From a virus: a DNA stretch of 20,489 bases. This document shows positions 4,206-9,070 of the stretch, piece by piece. The translations under genes and the position numbers were made by a program. Position 1 is the first letter of the stretch; every line of letters starts with the position of its first letter. The notes below the pieces were generated by a model. It did not search any database. It was not told the DNA's origin and was given only the letters and a program-made list of their open reading frames with translations. The stretch lies in the IMG/VR virus record IMGVR_UViG_3300021139_000195, positions 1-20,489 of that record. The stretch is one strand, 5' to 3'.

Positions 4206-6488
4206 TCACACAAGGGACTGGTAGTTCTGCACCACGAGCGTGATGGAGACCACCGTTAAGTCGGGGGCTGAAGTCTGGGCGGTAATGCCGATGAGCGACC
4301 CCTGCTGGGAGTTGGCAAACTCTAGCTGGGCGAGCCCGGTGCGGCCCCACACCATCGGCTGGCTGGAGCTGTTGGTCCAGCTGATTGTGCCGCCCGACGT
4401 GTTCGTCCACGTCAGGGACAACGACGTGTTATAATAGGGGCTCGTCGTGGGGGTGGTGCCACTGTCGATGGCGATCGAGAACGGCGCCGCCGAGATCTGG
4501 TTGTAATTCACGAGGCCGAACACCCGGTTCGTCATCTTTTCGAAGACGTAGCTCGGGAGGTCGTAGAGCTTCGACTGGATCGTCTTGACCAGGGTGGCGG
4601 ACGGGTTTTGGAACAACGGGAAAATGCTCGTTCCGTCAGTGCCGTAGGCCGTCATTTGCGAGTTGATTTCGTGCGTCGTGACGAACAGCAGGGGTTTTTC
4701 CTGGCTGGCCGTCCACCAGTGCTTGCCGTCCCACATCAGCAGCTTGTTGACTTGTAGGCCGGTCACCGGGTCGATGATGGGCAACAGGAGCATGTAGACG
4801 TGGATGCCGAAGATCACGGCGACCGCGGCGCTCGGGCTGATCGTGTAGGACGTGTACGGGACGCTGCTATAGAATCCGTCGAGCGCGTCGGAGATTTTGG
4901 TGACCGCGCCGCCGTAGGAGATGTGAACGCCGAACGAATTGGCGAACACGATATTGCGCGAGAACACCTGAACGCTGTTGGGCCAGGACGACCCGATTTG
5001 CGGGTCGACGTTCTGGTTCGTGAAGGTCGTAGTCGGCGGCGAGCCACTGGTTGACACGCCCGAGATGTAATTCATCGAGCTGTCGGCGATCAGGTAGAGG
5101 AACCCGTTCGATTGTTTGACGCCGGTGAAGCCGATTTTCAGGAACGAGTCGGTGGACTGGAACGCGCCGCCGCCATCCGGAGTGCCGAAGTCAGACGGGC
5201 TTTCGGGTGCGGTGAACAGCACCTTGGAGCCGTTAATGACCCAGGCATGCTGTTGGTAGGTTTCGACGTCCGAGCCTTGAACCCCGATCGGCATCAAGGC
5301 CACCGCAGCGGTCGCAACGGCGTTCAGGGAGTCGTAGATGTATATCGTTGGCGGGTCGGACGACGAGTAGCCTTCGCCGCCTTTAGTGATCGTAAAGCCG
5401 GTCACCGAGCCGCTGGACACCGTAGCCTTGATCGAAGCCCCGCTGCCGCCACCGCCGTAGACCGCGACTGCCGTGGTGGAGGTGTAGCCCGTCCCGCCAA
5501 AGCCTGGAGCGGAGAGCGTAACCGCCGTGATCACACCGCCGACGACGGTCGCCGTGGCGGTCGCCGTAGTGTTGCCGCCGCCGCCCGCGAACGCGAGGTA
5601 GACGTAGTCGATCGGGCTGTAGCCGCTGCCCGGGTTGGACACGTTGATCGTGCTGATCGACCCGTTCTGGAGCGTCGATGTGAACGTCGCGCCCGACCCC
5701 GATCCGCCGATAGCGGTGATGGTCAAGGGCGCGGTCATCGCCTCGCTGGCCACGGTCTGGGAGTTATTGACCGTGTAGGTGCCGATGCCCCCGGTGGCAC
5801 CGCCCGTTTGCGCAGTGATGTACGTGCCGGCGGTTACGCCAGTGCCGCTGATGAACTGGCCGACCTGTATGACGCCAGACGCAACCGCGGTGACTGTCAG
5901 CGTGGTAGTGGCAATAGACCCCGTGAACGATACGGAAGAATCGCCGTTGTAGCCGTAGCCCCCGCTGCTGATCGACACGTACGGGCCGATGCCGCCCGCT
6001 TTATACAGGGTCGTGCCATCCCACAGAAAATAGCCGTTGGTCTGCTGGGAGACGATGGCGAAATACTGGTTTCCCCACTGGGTCAGGCCGATCGAGGTCG
6101 GCGACGGCGACGTGATCGTGCCAGCCGGGGCGATGGTGGTCGCCGCCGATGTGTTTTCGTTGACCGCCACGATGCTGCCGTCCGACAGGAACACTATGCA
6201 GTAGGGCACAGTGCCGATGTTCCCGAACCAAAAGAACGCGACCGTTTTGCCGCCGGTGGCGGCGTAGAGGTTCGAACCGATGCCGTAGAGGGTCCGCGCG
6301 TTGCTTTTGCCCAGCGGCATGAACCCGTCGCAGATATACATCTGCTGGCTTTCGATGGCCGGACGCGACGGCTTCGTGTTGATGGTTTCGAAACCATCAA
6401 ACAGGATCTGCATCGGGTTGGCGGGGAAGTTCACCGAATACGATGGACGCCCCGGGAGACCACCGCCCTGGCCTTGGCTCTCAGACAT
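4206..6488 (-). CDS. Tail nozzle / DNA-stabilisation-type protein with an inserted beta-module cassette (760 aa)
   Basis: Residues 1-170 and about 395-760 look like beta-propeller repeats of podovirus nozzle proteins (P22 gp10-like, or T7 gp12-like). Signs are WDGTTLY (156-162), [42 protein letters not shown] and a C-terminal region ending [13 protein letters not shown]. Residues ~171-385 break this pattern with a different low-complexity beta region. It holds a [13 protein letters not shown]-type repeat (190-252) and several GxGY units (GGYGY 176-180, GSGY 287-290, GTGY 332-335, GEGY 371-374). The gene lies directly after two adaptor genes, as expected for a nozzle. The start follows GGGAG. 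Nozzle assignment is inference from fold-like patterns and order. Confidence 0.75.
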
Positions 6489-6503
6489 CGTTACGCTCCC
6501 GCA

Positions 6504-7433
6504 TCAGTAGCGCCCATAAGGGTTCGTATTGCGGCCCGGTTGCGCAGCGTTACGATACATCGGCATTTTGCTGTCGAACAGCTTGCGGTAATACTCAGCC
6601 GCGTTGAGGTTCTGCAACTCGAGGTACGCCAGATGCGCGGCCATGTAGGGCACGGCCTCGGTCCAAGGGTCGGGAATGGCTTCCACGTCCTGATCGGTCG
6701 TTAGGTCCTGCGGGTAGCAATAGCAGTCGATTTCAAGCTGATATTGTTGGCTCGGCAGGGGATAGCAATAGAGGCTGCCGGACGCGCCCTGGCCGAACTG
6801 ACTGCACATCGTGGGGACGTAGTAGTACTGGTTCGGGTACTGCCGAATCATCGCTTGGTAGGTCGAAAACGAGTACATCGGCAGGCTGTATCGATAGCCC
6901 GAATAGATCAACGACACCGATCGGATGCCGTAAACCGGCCCGATTCCGGGGAAGTTCGACAGCGGGATGTCCGCAAAATTGTAGATTTCCTGGCCGTTGT
7001 TCAAAGTCAGGATCGGCGAGGTCGCAGCAACAGCGGTGGCCCCGGTGCCGGTCGGGTCAGTGATCGTGATGTACGGTTGAAAATACCCGCTGCCGCCAAA
7101 CGTCACGTCGATGTTGACGATCATGCCGTCTTCCACCGTGGCTGTGGCGGTGGCCTGGGCTCCAAGCGGGTATAGGGACCGGCCGTCGGGCGCGTCGGGG
7201 GCGGTGACCGTCACGGTGGGGTTGGTGTAGCCCGATCCAGGCGCAGTCACGGTGATGGTTTCTACGCCGCCGGAGATCGGCGGTAGGATGCGCAAGCACT
7301 GCGACCGCATCGCGACTTCACGCCGCGCCCGGTTGATATAGTTGATCAGGGTGAACGGCGCGATCAGCTCTTGCCGCGTGTCGCTGATCATCTGCTGGAC
7401 GGTCTTCATGTAGCTGAACAGCGTTTGTGTCAC
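6504..7433 (-). CDS. Head-tail adaptor-like protein with an inserted GxGY beta module (309 aa)
   Basis: The ends match the neighbouring 238-residue protein. LINYINRARREVAMRSQCLR (residues 29-48) matches its LTSYINVARGQLAGETECIR. QFGQGxxGxLY, CYCYPQDLTTDQDxEAIPDPWTEAVPY and the following AHLAYLELQ match its C-terminal half. In podoviruses such helical proteins attach to the portal as adaptors or gatekeepers (P22 gp4 / T7 gp11 class), and the gene order supports that. Residues about 55-140 (GSGYT at 66-70, ATATATVEDG, GSGY) have no counterpart in the paralogue. The GTG start at 7433 is supported by a four-base GTGA overlap with the upstream stop; an internal ATG (codon 9) is possible. Confidence 0.8.
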   Translation of the reverse strand: MTQTLFSYMKTVQQMISDTRQELIAPFTLINYINRARREVAMRSQCLRILPPISGGVETITVTAPGSGYTNPTVTVTAPDAPDGRSLYPLGAQATATATVEDGMIVNIDVTFGGSGYFQPYITITDPTGTGATAVAATSPILTLNNGQEIYNFADIPLSNFPGIGPVYGIRSVSLIYSGYRYSLPMYSFSTYQAMIRQYPNQYYYVPTMCSQFGQGASGSLYCYPLPSQQYQLEIDCYCYPQDLTTDQDVEAIPDPWTEAVPYMAAHLAYLELQNLNAAEYYRKLFDSKMPMYRNAAQPGRNTNPYGRY

Positions 7434-8163: not shown

Positions 8164-8195
8164 AAAAAGGGGGCGGGGTTTAACCCCCACCCCCT
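8164..8195 (-). terminator. Rho-independent terminator after the capsid genes
   Basis: Read leftward, a stem of five G, a mismatch and four G faces four C, a mismatch and five C across a TTAAA-like loop, and is followed directly by TTTTT. It stands 27 bases after the stop of the 282-residue capsid-adjacent gene and before the first adaptor gene. It would reduce transcription from head to tail genes, giving capsid proteins a higher dose than tail proteins. Confidence 0.8.
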
Positions 8196-8221
8196 CTCGA
8201 CGCGCGGCTGGATGCAGAGCT

Positions 8222-9070
8222 TTAGAGCGGCTGCATATATACGGTAAGCGGGGTGCTGCTCGCCGCCACCCAGTAGGCGGTCGTCACCGCGGCAGCGGTG
8301 CCGCTGGAACCCGAACCACCGGTGATGGTCAGGGTCGGGGCGGTGGCGCCGCTCGACGCGCCGGTGTTGGTGCAAAGGACCGCAGTCACAGTGCCCGAAC
8401 CGGTCAGGGTCGGAGTGATGGAGGCGTTCACGATCGAGCCGTAGTTCGGATCGTACGGGTTCGGCAGAACCTGCACGGCCGGAACCGAGGTGTAGCCGGC
8501 GCCGGCGTTCACCACGGTGTAGCCGGTCACAATGCCGCCGCTGATGGTCGCGGTAGCAGTGGCCTGGACGCCCGGGCTCGGCGGAGCCGCGATCAGCACG
8601 ATCGGGGGCAGAGTGTAGCCCGAGCCGCCGCCGCCGGACGGCAGCGCCAGCGCGATGGCGCCGCCGATAACGGCAGTCCAGATCGAGCTGTTGTTCGAGA
8701 CCACGGTGGTGGTGGCGGCCGTGTAGCCGGTACCCGCGGTGGTTACAGCGGCGCCGGTGGCGATGCCGTTCGGGTTGACCACGCGGAGGTTCTGGCCGTC
8801 GCTGTGGACGTAGCCTTCGGAGACCGAGACTTCGCCGGTGGCGTAAGTCGAGCCGCCGGCAAACAGCCACTGGCCGGTTACCGGATCGAGCCACTGCATC
8901 GGCGCGCCGGCGACCATCCAATCGCCCGGCGGGACCGGCAGGCATTCACCGTTGCCGAGCACGAAGACGTTGGTGGCGGCCTGCGGGGCCGCGCCGATCA
9001 GAGAGACCGGGTAGAGGGACTGGGGATACGGAAGACCGATGCCCGGCCCGCCAAGACGGTTTTGTGCCAT
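8222..9070 (-). CDS. Head-associated structural protein carrying GxGY beta modules (282 aa)
   Basis: The first ~105 residues contain patterns seen in phage capsid-adjacent structural proteins ([17 protein letters not shown] at 36-51, [14 protein letters not shown]). The rest is Gly/Thr/Ala/Val-rich beta sequence with GTGYT (113-117), GSGYT (149-153) and GAGYT (190-194), spaced about 37-40 residues apart. The classic unit [21 protein letters not shown] lies at about 170-190. The gene follows the major capsid protein by 12 bases and has a strong AAGGAG eight bases before its ATG. It is immediately followed by a terminator, so it probably belongs to the high-expression head operon. A capsid decoration or head-fibre role is inference. 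Confidence 0.8.
   Translation of the reverse strand: [282 protein letters not shown]

Follow-up and report, generated by a model that had tools for sequence, protein, structure and literature searches.

A GxGY beta module shared by the nozzle, an adaptor and a capsid-adjacent protein of a short-tailed phage

Gene content of the locus

The window analysed here is a 20.5-kb contig (20,489 nucleotides; IMG/VR record IMGVR_UViG_3300021139_000195) that carries a minus-strand operon for the head and tail of a short-tailed phage, known solely from environmental sequence. Its genes run in the order terminase, portal, scaffold, major capsid protein, capsid-adjacent protein, a module-free and a module-bearing adaptor, nozzle and fibre-like protein (Table 1). 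The portal gene product gave a weak match to SU10_portal, and the major capsid protein is of the podovirus type (NCBIfam NF033394). Relatives are encoded in just over 300 IMG/VR stretches, among which contigs of 60-67 kb are common; Manatee Spring has yielded two annotated phage records that are distantly related. No relative was returned from bacterial genomes with the adaptor as the query.

Other features of the window were recorded alongside. Genes for tRNA-Met(CAT) (11763-11839) and tRNA-Lys(CTT) (11849-11923), both on the minus strand, lie within the late operon, in the interval between portal and scaffold. Adjoining them is a 60-residue ORF on the plus strand (11576-11758), opposed to the late operon, whose product by eye resembles AlpA/excisionase-type helix-turn-helix proteins. 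The adjacent minus-strand genes at 33-530 and 534-1910 encode proteins with similar C-terminal regions of ~110 residues, as judged by eye from the translations; these two are perhaps internal or ejection proteins. Tandem repeats occur at 17557-17641 (25-bp unit, 3.3 copies) and at the contig end (20446-20489; 10-bp unit GGGGAGCCCT, 4.4 copies).

Table 1. Positions in the window of the module-bearing proteins, their inserts and the adaptor paralogue
Feature	Position	Strand	Evidence
Capsid-adjacent protein (282 aa) with a unique domain at the N terminus, followed by GxGY units	8222..9070	-	ORF; conserved in aligned relatives; AF2 pLDDT 85.4
GxGY module region within the capsid-adjacent protein (residues ~104-250), with turns at 113, 149 and 190	8321..8761	-	Motifs, profile comparison, AF2
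Module-free adaptor paralogue	7430..8149	-	38% identity to the adaptor at 6504-7433; clean absence of the block in the alignment
Adaptor (head-tail connector), 309 aa	6504..7433	-	SU10_adaptor, Pfam PF24175, E 2.9e-12, 47.9 bits vs cut-off 27
Single two-unit block in the adaptor, residues ~53-139	7017..7277	-	Alignment, profile comparison
Tail nozzle (hub), 760 aa, seven-bladed propeller plus platform	4206..6488	-	AF2 pLDDT 84.5, pTM 0.80; Foldseek
Nozzle insert (residues ~165-401), lying between propeller blades 2 and 3; contains four GxGY units in two blocks and a single nested module	5286..5996	-	Alignment, AF2
Nested unrelated module, residues ~186-256, with GTYTV	5721..5933	-	Tail-fibre phrog_38233, E 5.6e-14

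One homologous module in three unrelated proteins

The original prediction held that the capsid-adjacent protein, a connector and a nozzle all carry units with a GSGYT-type turn, and these motifs were found in each. The turns are GTGY113, GSGY149 and GAGY190 in the capsid-adjacent protein (spacing 36 and 41 residues), GSGY66 and GSGY114 in the adaptor, with ATATATVEDGMI, and GSGY287, GTGY332 and GEGY371 in the nozzle, together with a degenerate GYGY177. Two repeats of ~40 residues each make up the working unit, a block of ~82-90 residues. The motif can be far more numerous elsewhere: one 275-kb viral contig encodes two proteins with 35 (L038:4434-13652, 3073 residues) and 16 (L039:6993-12488, 1832 residues) GxGY motifs.

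Profile-profile comparison with hhalign, in which each module region was represented by a sub-alignment of 25 to 71 homologues, linked the adaptor modules to those of the nozzle (probability 98, E 1.6e-13) and of the capsid-adjacent protein (probability 97, E 1.1e-10), and the nozzle modules to those of the capsid-adjacent protein (probability 97.8, E 1.2e-12). Raw scores of the modules ranged from 61 to 76, whereas 120 column-shuffled controls averaged ~10 and peaked at 18.9. The flanking cores (N-terminal domain, adaptor core and propeller) reached a probability of at most 1.2 against each other. Given such scores between modules whose surrounding cores are unrelated, we conclude that one homologous module is present in three otherwise unrelated proteins, as had been proposed from the motifs. 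A single 39-position unit profile gathered 723 copies across all three families.

The module has no name in NCBIfam or Pfam. No credible Pfam model was found for it in 70 capsid-adjacent, 45 nozzle and 71 adaptor homologues, and no Ig-like Pfam match occurred in the nozzle or capsid-adjacent sets. Pfam scans gave no assignment to the Ig, Big or FN3 families; the fold was compared through the capsid-adjacent model, which consists largely of GxGY units and matched no PDB fold. Searching PDB sequences with each of the three proteins, and with the corresponding profiles, returned nothing relevant, the weak matches to leucine-rich repeat and tailspike chains being rejected as resembling noise. A literature search for the GxGY motif found nothing, and a tblastn search of phage records with the consensus unit was likewise empty, probably owing to the low-complexity filter. 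In PHROG, the module occurs in head closure Hc2 (phrog_460), baseplate wedge (708, 719, 438 and 2885), tail fibre (5342), structural (701 and 19630) and baseplate hub families, with E values down to 5e-16 for the module region of homologues.

Because no PDB structure of the module was found, its geometry is taken from AF2 models. In line with the expectation that the modules fold as the same small beta unit, the two proteins modelled, the nozzle and the capsid-adjacent protein, are both confidently all-beta throughout the module. Predicted viral structures matching the capsid-adjacent model comprised P22 Gp10-like, cyanophage fibre, endosialidase and YHYH proteins. A giant-virus protein aligned with the model at an rmsd of 2.2 Å over 91 columns, consistent with a structural domain of ~90 residues.

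Relatives of the capsid-adjacent protein are bimodal in length, with 268-293 or mostly 343-406 residues. One of them (L009:6139-7197) carries an unrelated insert of ~75 residues (...VPAGYNGTYTVTAS...) between GxGY units, indicating that the units themselves accept inserts.

It had also been suggested that the module moves between genes by recombination, with nucleotide identity between copies as the sign of recent exchange. DNA repeats among the module copies in the window do not exceed 79% over 28 nt, and the closest counterpart of a unit at other loci came from the unit's own protein family in 277/293, 264/269 and 98/110 cases. Neither result supports recent gene-to-gene exchange, and the module thus appears to have entered the three genes long ago; present-day change is the gain and loss of blocks inside the nozzle gene. 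The other two proteins were also considered as donors of the single-block nozzle inserts and rejected, as the best matches of these inserts were all other nozzle blocks, at ~50% identity.

Block insertion in the adaptor and nozzle

The assignment of the connector and nozzle proved right on both counts, by Pfam SU10_adaptor and by Foldseek matches to the T7, SU10 and P22 nozzles, respectively. The adaptor passed the SU10_adaptor cut-off, and 36 of the 71 adaptor homologues matched this model at E<=0.01, with the match confined to the adaptor core across the set; alignment with SU10 gp11 was not significant. Compared with its paralogue, the adaptor has an extra block of ~88 residues in a hairpin, placed after the N-terminal helices and ahead of the next core strand. 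Each of the 71 homologues aligned has 84-93 residues between two anchor positions here, and the block holds invariant or nearly invariant residues. At the threshold used, GxGY units were detected in 95/108 of the best-matching adaptors vs 1/110 of the other paralogues. In the Manatee Spring adaptor L003, another stretch occupies the place of the GxGY block, so this hairpin appears open to insertion. Across 149 related loci, a genome typically encodes two adaptor paralogues in tandem; this pairing suggests two different connector rings.

The nozzle model matched Pa223, T7 gp12, SU10 gp17 and P22 gp10 (Foldseek E 4e-13 to 8e-10, probability 1.00). None of the three families (nozzle, adaptor and capsid-adjacent) gave a significant direct profile alignment with single SU10 proteins, so the link between the nozzle and SU10 is one of fold. 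By our reading of the DSSP string of the AF2 model, two blades (83-120 and 133-156) precede the insert and five (407-444, 454-495, 507-531, 553-594 and 602-638) follow it, placing the insert between blades 2 and 3; the apparent correspondence with the SU10 site comes from this strand count rather than from a superposition.

The 237-residue insert of the window consists of two blocks (161 residues) and an unrelated module of ~70-76 residues nested within a unit. This nested module is missing in the nearest relatives, scores a probability below 1 against the GxGY modules in hhalign, and has low pLDDT, probably because no aligned homologue carries it at that position.

Among 104 distinct nozzle homologues, insert lengths fell into the classes 11-18 (26 homologues), 81-89 (5), 161-189 (24), 237-284 (46), 314-320 (2) and 599 (1), with none in between. 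The best-period statistic was 0.79, vs at most 0.40 in 2000 uniform draws, although the homologues are related and not independent. Unit counts mostly follow the lengths as 2, 4, 6 and 8. In the 237-284 class, the profile detected 4 to 7 units, since some units are degenerate or the insert is partly another module, as in the window. Across the nozzle family, block numbers run from 0 to 4, with a single homologue at about 7. On a quick tree of the nozzle core, with the insert left out and block class assigned from insert length, there are at least 21 changes in block number and at least 7 changes between presence and absence. The module-free adaptor paralogue, the nested module of ~70 residues and the two-unit block as the real quantum all go beyond what had been noticed originally.

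Proposed role and comparison with known systems

On balance, we favour the explanation that the GxGY module is an unnamed, homologous all-beta domain serving as a plug-in spacer or docking element on the virion exterior, in a role otherwise taken by Ig-like domains, with the number of nozzle blocks setting length. By analogy with SU10, the blocks that separate blades 2 and 3 of the nozzle would lengthen the distal tail channel, to an extent given by their number. The adaptor block would lengthen a hairpin, probably within the beta domain of one adaptor ring at which tail fibres dock. The capsid-adjacent units, following the N-terminal domain, may form a surface layer on the head, probably bound to the capsid. 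This gene occupies the slot of SU10 gp10, an Ig-like domain protein; as gp10 is not seen in the SU10 virion map, describing the capsid-adjacent product as a capsid-bound surface decoration is a guess from position. Seen against SU10, the earlier idea of an exposed beta decoration on each assembly layer is plausible. A bolder proposal, possible but doubtful, is that an undescribed domain family independently took the nozzle-domain slot, that its copy number acts as a modular ruler of the nozzle, and that it also serves the adaptor and the capsid-associated protein.

The main alternative is that the module is chiefly an adhesive surface domain with affinity for surfaces such as host glycans, a role suggested before for Ig-like domains such as T4 Hoc, with nozzle length being incidental. 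Surface Ig-like domains are thought to help adsorption (PMC9022992), and such a role would suit the presence of the same module in tail fibres, endosialidase and YHYH proteins of cyanophages, as seen in predicted structures and PHROG, and in several virion layers at once. We nevertheless consider this rather unlikely, because no known binding domain was recognised (a credible Pfam match in 0/70 capsid-adjacent members) and because an adaptor block fixed at one copy, at a site near the portal, is hard to reconcile with adhesion. Less likely still, the modules could lack a dedicated function, being tolerated and almost neutral insertions whose spread and shrinkage come from recombination between repeats. 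The frequent block-number changes on the nozzle tree, the nozzles with no block and the nesting of another module inside a GxGY unit would all be expected of such insertions, but the adaptor block is constant in length and in its invariant or nearly invariant residues, and nozzle lengths shift by whole two-unit blocks only, which suggests selection against partial units. Convergence of low-complexity Gly/Thr/Ala/Val beta repeats, to which the biased composition of the units and the possibly filtered tblastn search might point, can be set aside as highly improbable, since shuffled controls of the same composition scored far below the modules, one profile gathers copies from all three families, and the structure search ties the capsid-adjacent model to P22 Gp10-like proteins.

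The use of one accessory domain on several virion layers, known for Ig-like domains, extends here to another, unnamed domain. The nozzles, with counted blocks at one site of one family from none upward, provide a natural series in which the number of nozzle domains can be tested against tail length, as can the ways in which such domains are gained and lost. With the unit profile, annotators can look for this module, which is repeated across numerous virion proteins now labelled hypothetical.

Several known systems can be compared with this arrangement. The PHROG virion families with the module have roles that differ from those of the window proteins, and there, too, the module is unnamed and undescribed. 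PMC9022992 cites Fraser et al. 2006 for promiscuous Ig-like domains in several classes of tailed-phage virion protein. The GxGY module is similar in being one type of beta domain added on to several classes of virion protein; it differs in belonging to another sequence family, one without a Pfam model, and in being internal, arranged in whole two-unit blocks and showing no sign of recent exchange between genes. The adaptors T7 gp11, SU10 gp11 and P22 gp4 belong to the same family as those of the window by Pfam SU10_adaptor, and in SU10 and T7 the beta domain of the adaptor docks fibres (PMC9509320); unlike these phages, the window encodes two tandem paralogues, one with a GxGY block in its hairpin.

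The closest parallel is the nozzle protein gp17 of SU10 (Kuravirus), whose seven-bladed propeller carries four Ig-like nozzle domains between its blades 2 and 3; upon attachment to the cell, these domains straighten and extend the tail by 28 nm (PMC9509320). The window nozzle likewise combines a seven-bladed propeller and platform with extra beta domains between blades 2 and 3, by strand count, and the neighbouring genes run in the same order of capsid, accessory beta protein and adaptor. In contrast to gp17, with which sequence similarity is not significant, the inserted domains here are GxGY blocks without detected Ig-like similarity, and their number varies within one family from none to about seven.
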